From Aphelenchoides besseyi (taxonomy: Eukaryota; Nematoda; Chromadorea; Rhabditida; Aphelenchoididae): DNA of 64,000 nt. The DNA is taken from positions 16,554,001 through 16,618,000 of the forward strand of contig JAMPIQ010000001.1 in the NCBI GenBank assembly GCA_024699855.1, in the 5' to 3' direction. Below are positions 18,560-60,904 of this stretch, in pieces; position 1 is the stretch's first letter; each line of letters opens with the position of its first letter. The position numbers were made by a program, and so were the translations under genes. The notes below the pieces were generated by a model. It was not told the DNA's origin, ran no database searches, and saw nothing but the letters and a program-made list of their open reading frames with translations.

Positions 18560-18630
18560 GCATCGGTGGTTCAGTGGTAGAATGCTCGCCTGCCACGCGG
18601 GCGACCCGGGTTCGATTCCCGGCCGATGCA
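18560..18630 (+). tRNA. tRNA-Gly (anticodon GCC)
   Basis: The 71-base sequence folds as a standard cloverleaf. The acceptor stem GCATCGG pairs with CCGATGC and a trailing A follows. The D arm contains GGTTCAGTGGTAGAAT, which fits box A. The anticodon stem CTCGC/GCGGG encloses the loop CTGCCAC with anticodon GCC. The T arm CCGGG-TTCGATT-CCCGG fits box B. A TTTT run at 18637-18640 serves as pol III terminator. No intron. Confidence 0.97.
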
Positions 18631-21733: not shown

Positions 21734-23099
21734 ATGGTTGCCTACAAGTTTTCTCTCTTTGCGGCAATGGACAAAAGCTTCGGCTCTGGAGTTGTTGTTC
21801 GTATGTTGGCACTTCTGATCGCTGGCATGGTTGAGGCGAAGTGTCTTGACGAGAAGTGAGTTTGCAAACAGTCAATCTGAACTAACAGCTTTGAACTTTC
21901 AGAAAGATCACTGGAGTCTGTAAGGACTTTTCTCTTCAGGTAAAGAGCGATTCCGCCGAGATCAACGCGACAATAAAGCTCAGAGAAAGTGTCAGAGGAA
22001 CGTTGCTTCGGTAAGTTTCATCACAAACATTCAATCTTATTGATTGTTCATTTCAGTGGAAACATTACGATCGAAAGTTACACGATTGGTGGCACTTTCA
22101 AGTCGTCCGTCAACATCGTCGCAAATTCCGCCGGAATGACGGTGCAACAAAACTCCTATATCGGTTTGCTCCACTTCACCGTTCCAACTTGGCACTGACG
22201 GTGAAGCGACGACTAAGTTTGCGGTCCACATCGATCGCGCCGACTTGGTCGAATTCGAATTGGTTTGTTTTCTGTCCGGCATTTGAATCATGCAAATTTC
22301 AGAACCCAAATGTCCGAGTCGTTTCGTCAAATGAAGTTAAGACGAACTACTGGATTACCATCGGTATTACGGTTGGAGTGTCAGTGTAAGTCCAATCATC
22401 TTATCTTTATTATCTTTCTAGGCGTGCACTGGTGCTCTCGTCGCTTGTTGGACTTGCATTTTACAGCTGCGAAGAGAAGCCGAAAGTGAGTTAGCGACTT
22501 TCACATCAACTGGACTTCTTTAGAAATAAGAAGCTCCAGCAAAAAACGAAAACCACTCGCGAAAGTCGTCGTTACACTGTCGGACAGAGAAACTCCAAAG
22601 GTAACAAACACAAGTGGTTGGTTGTACGCCAAAAACGCAATGATGTAAGTTTTCTCTCACCAACGTTGAGATCAAGTTCTTCTTCAGCGCATGTTCGTCT
22701 TCGCGAAACAGAGAGTCCTACCAGTTTGCCAAAACGCAAGTCTCTGCATCAAACTAATCGCAGCATCCACCAAAAGAACTCGGCCAACGCTTTGAAGAAA
22801 ATGAAGGCAACGAAGGCAAAGCGCGAAAACACGAAGAAGGTCGCTGAACGTTTGAACAAAGAATTGGTCGACGCAAAAAGAAAGTCAGTGCAGAGATTGC
22901 GGCGTTGGATGCGACTACTCCAAAAGTCAAGTCCAAGTCGCTCAAACTTGAACCTACGCAATCCGAAACGTTCACTGCTCACGATATCTCGACTGCTACC
23001 ACCACGAAAGCGACCACGAATCGTGCAACGACCGATGCTACGACCGAAGAAGCACTCACTGAAACACAAACCACTGATGACACTCGTTCCGGCATTTAA
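21734..23099 (+). CDS. Predicted type I single-pass membrane protein, Lys/Thr-rich tail (two frame breaks)
   Basis: Family not recognised. ATG 21734 (or the in-frame ATG at 21803, MLALLIAGMVEAKC) supplies a signal peptide. An ectodomain follows with ESVRGTLLRGNITIESYTI and VNIVANSAGMTVQQNSYI. Next come one membrane helix (NYWITIGITVGVSVRALVLS SLVGLAFY) and a basic, helical cytoplasmic part (ALKKMKATKAKRENTKKVAE). The tail is Thr-rich and ends TTDDTRSGI at 23099. Two single-base breaks were seen. Near 22186 the frame HFTV must continue as QLGTDGEATTKF; one extra T in GTTCC explains it. Near 22875 ELVDAK must continue as KKVSAEIAALDA; one A missing from the A5 run explains it. Homopolymer-type breaks suggest assembly error rather than decay. 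AATAAA follows at about 23131. Confidence 0.55.
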
Positions 23100-23307
23100 A
23101 AGCCGCTGATTTTGTTTGTTGGAGTGTCTGAATAAAGTTCCATTCATGTGTTTGACGCAAATGCAACTCAATTTTCAATTCATGAAACAACCATTGAGTT
23201 GACAGCATTTGGCACGAAGCTCATGGATTATGTGATTGAACAAACACATTTGAATATATCAGTTAGTGAATGAATCAGATGGAAAGTTCATTTTGCTTGA
23301 ATGTTTT

Positions 23308-23409
23308 ATGTGCTCAGTCAGTGAAGACCGAGCATTCCAAAATTTGTGTTGTTCGACCACAATGGTTGGGTCGAAACCTGAGCTAACCTCAAACTTGGGT
23401 TTATAAACC
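23308..23409 (-). ncRNA. Spliced-leader RNA gene, SL1-like variant (copy A)
   Basis: Read on the minus strand, bases 23409-23388 form a 22-base leader. It begins GGTTTATAAA and ends with the invariant SL1 3' half CCCAAGTTTGAG. A splice donor (GTTAG) follows at once. Downstream there is a stem with arms TTCGACC and GGTCGAA, then an Sm-type site AAATTTTGGAA (23335-23345). A strong terminal hairpin comes last (TGCTCGGTC / TGACTGAGCA, about 9 pairs around a TTCAC loop). This order of leader, donor, stem, Sm site and 3' hairpin in about 100 bases is that of nematode SL RNAs. The leader differs from SL1 only in the AT-rich positions 6-10. Expression and the 5' cap site are unproven. Confidence 0.85.
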
Positions 23410-23699
23410 GACGATGTTGACTGCTCTCCGTCTCTTTAGCTCTCACACTGCTGGGAAGTTTATGGGTCAAACGGCTCTCAGCAGACACCTTCTGCTTTCC
23501 TCTCACCCTATTACTTTCTCTCGATCTTTTCGCGATAACACCGCGGGGCTTCTTACTACAGACCTCTCGCAATCTTTCTAGTTGTCGCGTGAGTGAGAGA
23601 GACATCTTGACAAACAGAACATGAGCATCGAAAACCGTCCTACCCAGCGGTTTTGTGGAAGTTGTGGAGCAAAAGAGACAAAGATCCGTCAACATCGCC
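23410..23699. promoter_or_regulatory. Shared upstream region of the two divergent SL RNA genes
   Basis: The two SL RNA genes are head to head with about 290 bases between their first nucleotides. Just upstream of each leader the same block occurs in inverted orientation: AAAGAGAC, a few bases, then GTCAACATCG immediately before the leader. A further pair of similar blocks (CCCAGCAG..GTG and CCCAGCGG..GTGG) lies 50-70 bases upstream. This is where snRNA-type proximal sequence elements are expected. The element identity is inferred from conservation between the two copies. Confidence 0.6.
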
Positions 23700-23808
23700 G
23701 GTTTATTAACCCAAGTTTGAGGTTAGTATTAAGTTCTAGCTCGGTTTTAAGCTGTGGCTGAACACTCAACAAATTTTGGAACGTTCGACCTTCACTGGCT
23801 GAGCACAT
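23700..23808 (+). ncRNA. Spliced-leader RNA gene, SL1-like variant (copy B)
   Basis: Bases 23700-23721 form a 22-base leader beginning GGTTTATTAA and ending CCCAAGTTTGAG, followed by the donor GTTAG. The Sm-type site AAATTTTGGAA lies at 23771-23781, about 70 bases into the RNA, and is followed by a terminal hairpin (GTTCGACC / GGCTGAGC with loop TTCACT). Compared with copy A, the internal stem differs in sequence and the terminal stem shows a T-A to C-G compensatory change, so both copies look constrained as RNA. Copy B differs from copy A in one leader base. Confidence 0.85.
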
Positions 23809-23809
23809 A

Positions 23810-24554
23810 GTTGAAAGAGAAACGTTAAAGGCTTGAGTCTTCGTTGTTAGTCTGCAGTCGCTGTGAAAGAACGTAAACTCTAAATTTGCTTGTTACTGGC
23901 TGTCGAACAAATTCAAGAACCTCAACAAACGACAAGTAGATGCTCGTCCACTCTGCCAACTCATCTGTTCGACCTGTAAAGTTAAGATCTGCATTGAAGA
24001 TTTAACTTGTGCAACGGTTATAGCTTTTAAGCTATCACTTTGAATGTTCAGATTTTTATTATTAACCAAACGTTACCCAACAGATCCATCAGATACATGT
24101 GTTCAATCATCGAGTCCACGCGTATCGACCGAATCAGCACTAAGCATTGTTTTGAAGCATTGATGTTCTCTGAACGTTCACGTGATTTATGAAAGCGATT
24201 GAAAAACAACTTTTAGCAAATGAAACGTGTAATTGATCGGGGATTGCATTTGGAAAGTCGAAAACAATTTTTGTTGAAATAGTCGAATCAAAACCAGTGA
24301 TCCAATATAATCGATGGCTTTTTAAGTCGCACGACCGCATTGAGAGTTCATTTCAGGATCGTAAGCCAATTGCATAGCCATCACTTTTGCGGTAATTATC
24401 TCGAAATTCGCTTTCGCTTCACGTGCAATTGTTTGATCTCCGCCTTTCATTCACACGTGAATTACGTGACATCCAAACAATTAACTCTCGATACCCAATC
24501 AATCGGCTATTCAAAAGCCGAGTGGAATCGTTGTAACGAGTCAGTTTGAGCAAA
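23810..24554. other. Intergenic stretch without a recognised gene
   Basis: About 745 bases follow SL RNA copy B. No 5S rRNA, further SL copy, tRNA or convincing exon was seen on either strand. The 3' end is presumably the promoter of the next gene. Confidence 0.45.
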
Positions 24555-58230: not shown

Positions 58231-60904
58231 TTAAGCAAATCGGAAACGACCGGTGGTCTTGTAAAGACGTCGAAGCGCTTGAGCGTCGTTGTACGAATGT
58301 GGATTGGACGGAACGTACGGAACGTTGACTTTGGCGCCGTAGAACATCGAACGATTGAAGGCGTAGTCGTGCGGTTTGTGCCATTCGTATGCGGTATGAA
58401 CGTACTGTTGTCCGAAATCGTCGGCCTTCAATCGCGAGTTCACGTAGCGATCCAAGTACTGTTGCGACTGGCGAAGATACGATTTGTAGGGTTGAGCACG
58501 CTGAAAGTGTATTCGTGATTAATAATCGCGAGTTTGTGTTTTATAGTTCGCGTAATCGAACTTTCCGAAAAAAGAAGCAAAAGGAATTTGTGTACACAGA
58601 GAAAAACTCGTCTATTTGGTTTCTTTTCCACAACCTTTCTCTCATTTCTTATCGAACTGCTCGATTCATTCTTTTGATTTGGACTTTTGCAGACCGAAAA
58701 TATGTCAACGGATCCAACGAAACGACTATATCTCGGCATCGATTTGGGCACCTCATCGGTCAAAGCGGTGCTTATCGATCGAAGTGGAGCGGTTCGATCG
58801 ACGGCAACAAGTCCGCTGACCGTTCAACATCCACAACCCCGATGGTCCGAACAAGATCCCGAGTCGTGGTGGAAAGCGACGGAAGACGCCGTGACAAAGG
58901 TTCTTCATTCTACGGGTATCAGTTCGCAGGACGTCGCTGCAATTGGACTCTCAGGTCAACAGCACGGTGCAACGTTGTTGGACGCTGAAGACCGTGTTCT
59001 TCGACCGGCAATTCTCTGGAACGACGGACGATCGGATGTTGAATGTGCGGAGTTGGAGCGAATACCCGAATTTCGCGAAATCACCGGCAATTTAGCGATG
59101 CCCGGCTTCACAGCTCCAAAATTGTTGTGGGTTAAGAAACACGAGCCGAAAGTCTTTAACGTAAGTTTAGAGTTTAGTTCATTCCAATTTTTGTTGCTTA
59201 GAAGATCGCCAAAGTGCTTTTGCCAAAAGATTACCTTCGATTTCGTTTAAGTGGCGCGTACATGAGCGACGCTTCGGATGCTGCCGGTACTTTGTGGTTG
59301 GATGTTAAGAAGCGAAAATGGTCGAAACAAATGCTTGAAGCCACCGGCCTCAAGGAATCTCAAATGCCAGAAGTACGCGAAGGCTCGGAAGTTGCGGGTT
59401 ATTTGAGAGATGAATTAGCGATTCGCTGGAAGCTTCCGAAACAAATTCTGATTGCGGCGGGCGGTGGCGACAATGCGGCCGGAGCGGTTGGTGTTGGGAT
59501 CGTAAACAATGGTCAGGCAATGTTGTCGATTGGAACATCGGGAGTCTACTTTGCGGTATCCGACGGTTTCAAAGCTCTACCGGATGCGGCCGTTCATTCC
59601 TTCTGTCACGCTTTGACGGGCACATGGCATCTAATGAGCGTGATGTTAAATTCGGCCAACTGTTTGGATTTCACCGCAAGACTCACTGGTTTCCCCAATG
59701 TTTCTGCCTTGTTGGAAGCCGCGGAAGAACGCGGACTTCAACTCAATGGACCGCTTTTTCTCCCGTATCTGACCGGAGAACGAACACCACACAACGATGC
59801 TCATTTGCGTGGCTCATTTACTGGTAATCTCTTGACTGAACAATAACAATTCGGTTTTGAGTTTTAGGACTCGGACCAAAAACCGATCGCGCTGATTTAG
59901 CAAATGCAACACTCGAAGGTGTTGGTTTGGGTCTACTCGACGGGTATTTGGCTGTTGAATCGACCGGATGTCATGCCAAAGAAATCACGGTAATCGGCGG
60001 AGGCTCACGATCCGCCTACTGGACACAAATGTTGGCCGACATTTTGGGTCGACGTTTAGTGCTTCGAGCTGGTGGAGAAGTTGGTCCGGCTTTGGGAGCT
60101 GCTCGATTAGCTCGTTTGGCTGTCGAACCCGAAACCCCAATCGATGAAGTGTGTCTGATGCCGGAGATTAGTGCGATTCGTGAGCCGAATACCGAACGAC
60201 ACGAATACTTCCGAAACATTCGACATCCGCTCTTCCGAAGAGCTCACGCACAACTTCAACCGCTCTACGCTCAACAATCTAACGAACAAGTTTAGAAATT
60301 TGTGCCTCAATGAGTGCACTTGTTACGAATAAACTCACCTCCTCAAAGAAGATTCGTTTGGCTTGCAAGGAAAAATAAGGGACGTGAGTGAAACGTTCGT
60401 ACGGTGGAATTTCCTTTCGAAGTGGTCGATTGATTTCACGTTGAGTATCCTGAAAACTCGATTTCATATATAAATCAATTGAATTTAACTTACCACATAT
60501 CGCGCCGTACTGTACGCGCCGTTATACCAATTGTGGATCATTGGTTTGTAGACGGGAGTTGTATGGACGATACGCTCAGCTTGTCGATCGTATTGCGGCA
60601 ACAAACCCAGCGATGGAGCCAAGATACTAACCGATTCACTGCGTTTGATCGGATAGTCGTGAACCGTTTCCTTGATGTGCATCATATTCGTGTAGGAAGC
60701 CGAACGACCCAAACGTTTCGGTTTTGACCAAACATCGCTGATGAAGTTGGAGAACGTGGTTTCTGCTTTCGCCAAAGTCGTGTATTTGCTTAAAATTTGA
60801 ATGATTGAAAAGTTCGAAAGGCCGTGAACGAACTGTGTCGGATAGTCGTTCCACCATTTTGTTGCCGAATCCACATCGTCGCCGATAGCCGAATAGCGAC
60901 CCAT
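58231..60904 (-). CDS. Unrecognised Tyr/Arg-rich protein; hosts the xylulokinase gene in an intron
   Basis: Minimum model: ATG 60904 (MGRYSAIGDDVDSATKWWND). The frame is open further upstream (FPILFFETFAQNQKRRDLAL) after an acceptor at about 60976, so a 5' exon may be missing. The long exon continues YPTQFVHGLSNFSIIQILSK, NFISDVWSKPKRLGRSASYT and RSESVSILAPSLGLLPQYDR to NWYNGAYSTARYV. The next exon reads TQREINRPLRKEIPPYERFT with SLQAKRIFFEE. A GTGAGT donor at about 60339 opens a 1.8-kb intron, closed at about 58503 (TTTCAG). The last exon is RAQPYKSYLRQSQQYLDRYV, LKADDFGQQYVHTAYEWHKP and PSNPHSYNDAQALRRLYKTT, stop 58231. There are no membrane helices or enzyme motifs. The aromatic and basic composition suggests a structural, filament-associated protein, but this is a guess. 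Confidence 0.65.
58685..58692 (+). promoter_or_regulatory. Candidate 3' splice site in the xylulokinase leader
   Basis: TTTTGCAG lies nine bases before the xylulokinase ATG (58702) and follows a long T-rich tract. No coding exon precedes it, so it could accept a spliced leader. Inferred from position and consensus. Confidence 0.45.
58702..60295 (+). CDS. xylB: Bacterial-type xylulokinase (XylB), nested in an intron of the opposite-strand gene
   Basis: FGGY-family sugar kinase converting D-xylulose and ATP to xylulose 5-phosphate. ATG 58702 gives MSTDPTKRLYLGIDLGTSSV, then LSGQQHGATLLDAEDRVLRP, AILWNDGRSDVECAELE and LAMPGFTAPKLLWVKKHEPK. After an intron it reads KIAKVLLPKDYLRFRLSGAY, MSDASDAAGTLWLDVKKRKW, GGGDNAAGAVGVGIVNNGQA (catalytic Asp), MLSIGTSGVYFAVSDGF, LPYLTGERTPHNDAHLRGSF and, after a second intron, VIGGGSRSAYWTQMLADILG with GEVGPALGAARLARLAVEPE. 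About 500 residues. The blocks follow E. coli XylB almost without gaps and are quite unlike animal XYLB. Two short host-type introns (about 59161-59202 and 59824-59867) show it is part of the nematode genome. Confidence 0.93.

Follow-up and report, generated by a model that had tools for sequence, protein, structure and literature searches.

A divergent pair of putative spliced-leader RNA genes in Aphelenchoides besseyi and copies of their altered leader in BEL/Pao-like repeats

In the window, by which we mean the whole 64,000-nucleotide stretch of the Aphelenchoides besseyi assembly that was analysed (contig JAMPIQ010000001.1), positions 23303-23813 read as two spliced-leader (SL) RNA genes pointing away from each other (Table 1). 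An earlier note on this DNA had placed such a pair here, and the placement was confirmed by the anatomy of both copies and by a covariance model, termed R1, built from 22 SL genes of the same genome; R1 scores 115.1 bits on the plus copy and 106.5 bits on the minus copy, values that are not independent, since the plus gene itself supplied one of the 22 rows and another row, L005, is the same as the minus gene from the leader through the terminal stem. The 22-nt leader, the immediate GT donor, the Sm-type site and the 3' hairpin described in the note are all present in both copies. Its statement that the leaders differ from SL1 across positions 6-10 had to be corrected, the actual changes being at positions 7 and 9 in the plus leader and at 7, 8 and 9 in the minus leader. 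In both genes the Sm site begins within 20-60 nt of the donor (49 and 42 nt), the range that the available part of PMC7986045 gives as the SLIDR default, and the RNA of the plus gene would end near 23804-23809.

Table 1. Coordinates of the putative SL RNA gene pair in the window and of related features
Feature	Position	Strand	Evidence or remark
SL RNA gene, plus copy	23700..23813	+	Own covariance model R1 115.1 bits; Rfam SL1 32.2 bits at 23700-23807
22-nt leader GGTTTATTAACCCAAGTTTGAG	23700..23721	+	GT donor 23722-23723
Stem-loop II region, plus gene	23733..23763	+	Single-sequence fold
Sm-type site AAATTTTGGAA, plus gene	23771..23781	+	Begins 49 nt past donor
Terminal stem-loop III, plus gene	23783..23804	+	8-bp hairpin; one A-C mismatch
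PSE-like block CCGTCCTACCCAGCGGTTTT, upstream of plus gene	23635..23654	+	Promoter role inferred
CAACATCG block, directly upstream of plus leader	23690..23697	+	Upstream comparison
SL RNA gene, minus copy	23303..23409	-	Model R1 106.5 bits; Rfam SL1 28.6 bits; fold z -3.70
22-nt leader GGTTTATAAACCCAAGTTTGAG	23388..23409	-	GT donor directly after
Stem-loop II region, minus gene	23351..23377	-	Single-sequence fold
Sm-type site AAATTTTGGAA, minus gene	23335..23345	-	Begins 42 nt past donor
Terminal stem-loop III, minus gene	23312..23333	-	Fold and covariation; 8-bp hairpin
PSE-like block CCGTTTGACCCATAAACTT, upstream of minus gene	23456..23474	-	Promoter role inferred
CAACATCG block, directly upstream of minus leader	23412..23419	-	Upstream comparison
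290-bp inter-leader region with both upstream blocks	23410..23699	.	Between leader starts
Segment with inverted copy about 122 kb off at 16.70 Mb and partial copies elsewhere	21786..23809	.	97.7% over 2026 nt; extent as far as compared, left edge near end of compared sequence
Leader-flanked Pao elements	C1:1363824/1370754 (L092, L093), C1:15304477/15312527, C2:17715114/17721965, C3:3187804/3195001, C3:8455898/8462607	same strand	PF05380 match inside

The leader core alone is weak evidence, because the two sites at which CCCAAGTTTGAG occurs in the window with at most one mismatch, which are just the two leaders (0.29 expected), were equalled in number in 5 of 100 shuffles. Unlike the core alone, the whole genes can be taken as strong evidence for SL RNA genes. 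The fold of the minus-strand RNA beats all 200 shuffles, and that of the plus strand is by itself unremarkable (z -1.44, equalled in 18 of 200 shuffles).

Across the 22 aligned genes, standard pairing is found in 96.9% of 286 cells, and it falls to 19.5-48.3% when the partners are slid by one to three columns. In a shuffle control that leaves relatedness in, with the structure taken from the same alignment and the genes being copies in few groups, both-side changes in 8 of 13 pairs were reached in 2 of 500 shuffles and the covariation score in none of 500; the number of further pair types is ordinary, with 104 of 500 shuffles as good. Both-side changes affect 7 of the 8 pairs of the terminal stem, and covariation is strong for stem III and weak for stem I, stem II being derived from single folds only. 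The compensatory change in the terminal stem that had been proposed is real (C-G versus U-A), but the adjacent pair of the plus copy is an A-C mismatch, unique among the 22 aligned genes. This mismatch is one of two steady places at which the plus copy deviates, the other being a C at -2, where T is found in 27 of 30 upstream sequences.

These 30 distinct upstream sequences come from 43 of the 44 catalogued genes, one gene with an odd leader having been dropped. C at -56, G at -3 and C at -1 occur in 30 of 30 and C at -57 in 29 of 30, and a steady block spans about -65 to -50. In the SL genes of other nematodes the PSE lies near -60, and the steady block here may be the PSE. The inverted blocks AAAGAGAC...GTCAACATCG, pointed out earlier as candidate shared promoter elements, are present between the PSE-like block and the -3/-1 letters, but the steadiest upstream letters are those at -57/-56, within the PSE-like block, and at -3 and -1.

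The check with a nematode SL covariance model, suggested in the note, gave a divided result: Rfam SL1 (RF00198) produces the two highest bit scores at the locus, but these scores, 32.2 and 28.6 bits, lie under the gathering score of 75, a test that addresses the canonical SL1 model and not SL RNA generally. Rfam SL1 is therefore absent from the window at the gathering threshold, and the SL RNA genes are not filed as RF00198 under Rfam's rule. With nematode SL1 RNA they share a 22-nt leader ending in ACCCAAGTTTGAG, the GT donor, the Sm site and stem-loops I and III (II by single folds), and they differ from it at leader positions 7 and 9 (and 8) and in scoring below the Rfam cut-off. Genome-wide, among the 50 of 10971 candidates that were scored, Rfam SL1 has 37 matches at E ≤1, a loose threshold that gives matches in 2 of 14 control genomes too; the best reaches 44.2 bits and none reaches 75. 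With R1, 46 matches at E 1.7e-5 or better, 22 of them the model's own rows, were obtained from 32 sequence sources that had been selected for containing matches, and five weaker matches (E 0.098-0.68, two inside the window) are taken as noise.

The assembly (47.4 Mb, 31 contigs) contains at least 46 SL RNA genes (44 catalogued; 46 R1 matches), and a pattern match indicates one further likely gene at C1:10943811. Genes entered the catalogue if a leader-like stretch and a donor were followed by the Sm motif AATTTTGGA; this motif, being the selection criterion, is invariant in 22 of 22 aligned genes. Eight leader strings are found in the 44 genes, one of them dominant: 27 genes carry GGTTTATTAACCCAAGTTTGAG, the plus type, four carry the minus type, further strings are shared by groups of 3, 3, 3 and 2 genes, and two are odd and of uncertain frame. 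Exact SL1 has no match in the assembly, the closest sites among the 100 of 122 matches listed having one mismatch. Several leaders per genome are likewise found in Globodera (PMC4054857) and Trichinella (PMC7986045), for which the available parts of these articles describe variant leader sets; five leader strings of the present genome were not found in print in the open literature.

Among the 46 genes, 28 form 14 pairs less than 5 kb apart, every one divergent, with leader starts spaced by 260, 283, 291, 333 or 343 bp; these are not 14 independent events, because many are mutual copies (four or five pair kinds). Several relatives have no partner gene. At C1:4361910/4362243 and in four similar pairs at 4.55-4.85 Mb, the bodies within a pair are near-identical and the upstream parts different, and both copies of the 4.36-Mb pair share one variant that is missing from the other four pairs, as if the arms convert each other. 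The pairs at C1:10419849/10420132 and 10719905/10720165 and their copies have clearly different leaders within a pair, one of them ending in GTTAAAG or ACTTAAG. SL1 genes in other nematodes lie in 5S-linked arrays; compared with these, the genes here are dispersed and often stand as divergent pairs. The assembly has at least 47 dispersed 5S rRNA matches, and the distance from the 44 genes to the nearest listed 5S is at minimum 2.5 kb (pair at C1:10.61 Mb), 11 kb at the next locus and about 265 kb at the median, one pair having a listed 5S rRNA gene within 10 kb. For the window pair this distance is about 147 kb, on which ground 5S linkage was rejected. The earlier note was right in seeing this pair as standing away from 5S genes, but the arrangement that it regarded as unusual is common in this genome. 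No paper on head-to-head SL genes in nematodes was found by title in the open literature; for Brugia, the available part of PMC7181701 contrasts extra SL1 copies with 5S-associated or arrayed ones.

Very probably, then, the locus comprises two SL RNA genes, functional now or until recently, that diverge from one 290-bp region, each with its PSE-like block, and the sequence evidence supports this reading. Each gene would be transcribed into a capped RNA of about 100-110 nt, Sm proteins would bind this RNA at AAAUUUUGGAA, and its first 22 nt would be donated to pre-mRNAs via trans-splicing. Both genes would be members of a dispersed family, at least 46 in number, with divergent pairs common and with the main leader GGTTTATTAACCCAAGTTTGAG replacing SL1, which would mean that SL RNA genes can be organized as dispersed divergent pairs under a leader departing from nematode SL1. 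The copies of the leader in retroelement LTRs, described below, may serve as an indirect sign that RNAs carry it.

The pair could instead be a decaying duplicate, that is, two SL RNA pseudogenes in a genome where other copies supply the RNA. The duplication of the segment elsewhere at 97.7%, the two steady places at which the plus gene is off and the unpaired state of several relatives would fit such decay, which we nevertheless consider unlikely, as leader, donor, Sm site, stem and upstream block are intact in both copies. Moreover, the alignment with the pair at C1:16.15 Mb (L008) takes in the genes and the sequence close upstream of them (88% and 96%) but not the intervening 23422-23597, as expected if selection holds the genes. 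It is highly improbable that the locus is an artefact of foldback or assembly, or that it encodes a long hairpin RNA, for example a miRNA precursor. The inverted repeat is evident in two pairs of arms (23383-23442/23667-23726, 60 nt, 88%; 23307-23347/23769-23809, 41 nt, 88%), and Rfam MIR5048 matches weakly over the foldback (22.3 bits, gathering score 160; its E of 0.0064 is slightly better than the 0.0071 of SL1 on the minus copy), but the arms have different bodies and leaders, the spacer lies outside the inverted repeat, and a pair with the same two unequal bodies is found again at C1:16.15 and 16.70 Mb. The foldback or miRNA reading was rejected on these unequal arms and this recurrence, and the resolution of the apparent foldback into two SL genes, as in the note, stands. 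It is still harder to believe that the window genes are the LTR ends of a leader-carrying retroelement: the main leader has 78 exact copies, 27 in SL genes and 51 outside the catalogued ones, but the 70 leader-only sites that were examined have no SL RNA body, 54 having an AATAAA by the leader, and in the window pair the bodies are complete and the upstream blocks present.

These 70 sites comprise all 51 exact copies and 19 altered ones, the latter drawn from lists that show 100 of 122, 100 of 126 and 100 of 154 matches. L050 was set aside, its match being confined to the 12-base core. With the leader masked they fall into 22 flank families. At one site per family, the frequency of the commonest base is 0.49 upstream (-60 to -9), 0.38 downstream (+31 to +89) and 0.99 in the leader, the last value being partly selection because the sites were found via the leader; 16 of the 22 representatives have the host's leader exactly. 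The leader thereby presents itself as a conserved island between unalignable flanks. The AATAAA lies at -8 to -5 or +22 to +36, bounds set after viewing the data, against a frequency of 1% in shuffled flanks. Directly past the leader, 16 of the 70 sites repeat TTTGAG (14) or GTTTGAG (2), in 8 distinct contexts, and three families with this repeat also include members without it. The six extra bases are what trans-splicing at an AG within the leader (CCCAAG/TTTGAG) would leave, with slippage as the rival source; the seven-base form is unexplained by such splicing. The minus leader has eight exact copies, namely four SL genes, two LTR-like sites (L032, L143), at which it could be a chance mutation, and two more at C3, C3:8208388 (-) and C3:8210529 (+), on opposite strands 2.1 kb apart. 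The leader ending in GTTAAAG was found in no LTR, all five exact copies of ACCCAAGTTAAAG being SL genes, and leader-like strings gave no matches in viral contigs. An origin of the leader-only sites as processed mRNA copies is disfavoured, because families share upstream flanks and some copies are same-strand pairs with primer-binding sites.

Five same-strand, same-family leader pairs, 6.7 to 8.1 kb apart, enclose a same-strand match to the Pao peptidase (PF05380); four are in family 0 and one in family 1, and both families account for 27 of the 70 sites. With a BEL/Pao match thus bracketed by two copies of one family, the leader lies in LTRs in these five cases, and the likeness in layout suggests the same for the other 43 sites. 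Among the sites listed, 9 of 45 Pao matches (50 rows with five split pieces merged) lie within 7 kb of a leader site on their own strand, where random positions give 0.54 and a maximum of 4 in 1000 sets; 4 have an opposite-strand site, and 36 of 45 are without a same-strand site among those listed. For Gypsy, 3 of 41 matches (46 rows less five that are split pieces or on another contig) have such a same-strand site, none has sites on both sides, and Gypsy elements are not supported as leader carriers. The copies at C1:13881839/13890599 were rejected as two ends of one element because, despite a Pao match between them, their flanks belong to different families. One of two primer-site patterns follows the leader in 11 of the 70 sites, eight being of the tRNA-Gly type, and at one site (L043) the LTR ends TGTCAG...CAAACA are visible. 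The window contains a tRNA-Gly (GCC) gene (18560-18630, +); with CCA added, its 3' end complements the primer-site pattern seen in the largest of the families that bear the leader.

Some of the leader-bearing repeats appear to be mosaics that switch at the leader's edges. L096 (C3:178774) and L097 (C3:227325) are identical from -100 through the final base of the leader and have nothing in common after it. The alignment of L104 with L127 starts at the base preceding the leader (91% over 113 nt) and that of L054 with L055 runs from -7 to +71 (96%), neither continuing upstream; L105 and L116 align solely from -4 onward (84%). L144 aligns with L098 from -100 to +33 (84%) and with L099 just from the first base of the leader to +56 (83%), and L055 aligns with L136 from -74 to +57 (81%) and in another block farther upstream. 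One flank is high and the other low in 60 of 2415 site pairs (47 upstream-high, 13 downstream-high; 33 sites involved), a count that reduces to few independent mosaics, at least four of them clear, because most pairs repeat few cases and some short LTRs end within the 70-nt stretch.

We propose, giving the idea about an even chance, that the host SL acts as the R repeat of BEL/Pao retrotransposons, is rechecked in each cycle, follows the host leader and yields U3/U5 mosaics joined at the leader. The element RNA would gain its 5' end by SL trans-splicing, and the LTR-encoded leader near its 3' end would complete R, the same 22 nt being required for the first strand transfer. With each cycle R would be replaced by, or tested against, the host leader and so track its evolution, and a common R would let strong-stop DNA jump between such elements and give rise to mosaics of unrelated U3 and U5. 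The main alternative is that the leader is encoded in the DNA where transcription starts and has been retained for translation or on some other account. If the proposal of a trans-spliced R is true, a class of retrotransposons would depend on SL trans-splicing for an essential repeat, LTRs would keep a genomic record of host leaders, and both the SL1-Pao association in Brugia and the exchange of control regions between unrelated elements would be accounted for.

In Brugia malayi, according to the available part of PMC7181701, 120 SL1 copies lie outside SL RNA genes; 60 of these copies have a PAO element no more than 1 kb away, and sometimes two same-strand copies flank one Pao element. The authors of that paper propose that leaders were added to expressed PAO RNAs, which then integrated. 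Leader copies outside SL genes near Pao elements, at times flanking one on the same strand, are thus common to both species as far as that text goes. The Brugia leader is there the canonical SL1, identical to that of C. elegans, whereas here it is the host's changed leader, situated inside the LTR in the checkable cases, at a fixed distance from AATAAA and at mosaic joints. What may be added to the Brugia report is the leader as R, following the host's own leader and joining unrelated U3 and U5. In C. elegans, the part of PMC3315495 available describes a 2.4-kb message of Cer1 with and without SL1 and an 8-kb RNA that is not trans-spliced at that site; Cer1 is likewise an LTR element whose RNA receives SL1, with the difference that it is of the Gypsy type. 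Older work on SLs in LTR elements, for example those of Ascaris, may exist beyond the mostly open literature covered here.

Elsewhere in the window, a xylulokinase (FGGY) gene extends from 58702 to about 60296 (+) and matches NCBIfam XylB. The best PDB match of its first exon piece is the xylulose kinase 2itm (E 1.3e-54), presumably the E. coli enzyme. The gene is possibly of bacterial origin; a short intron is likely at 59161-59201, and the splice-acceptor-like TTTTGCAG stands 9 bases 5' of the ATG.
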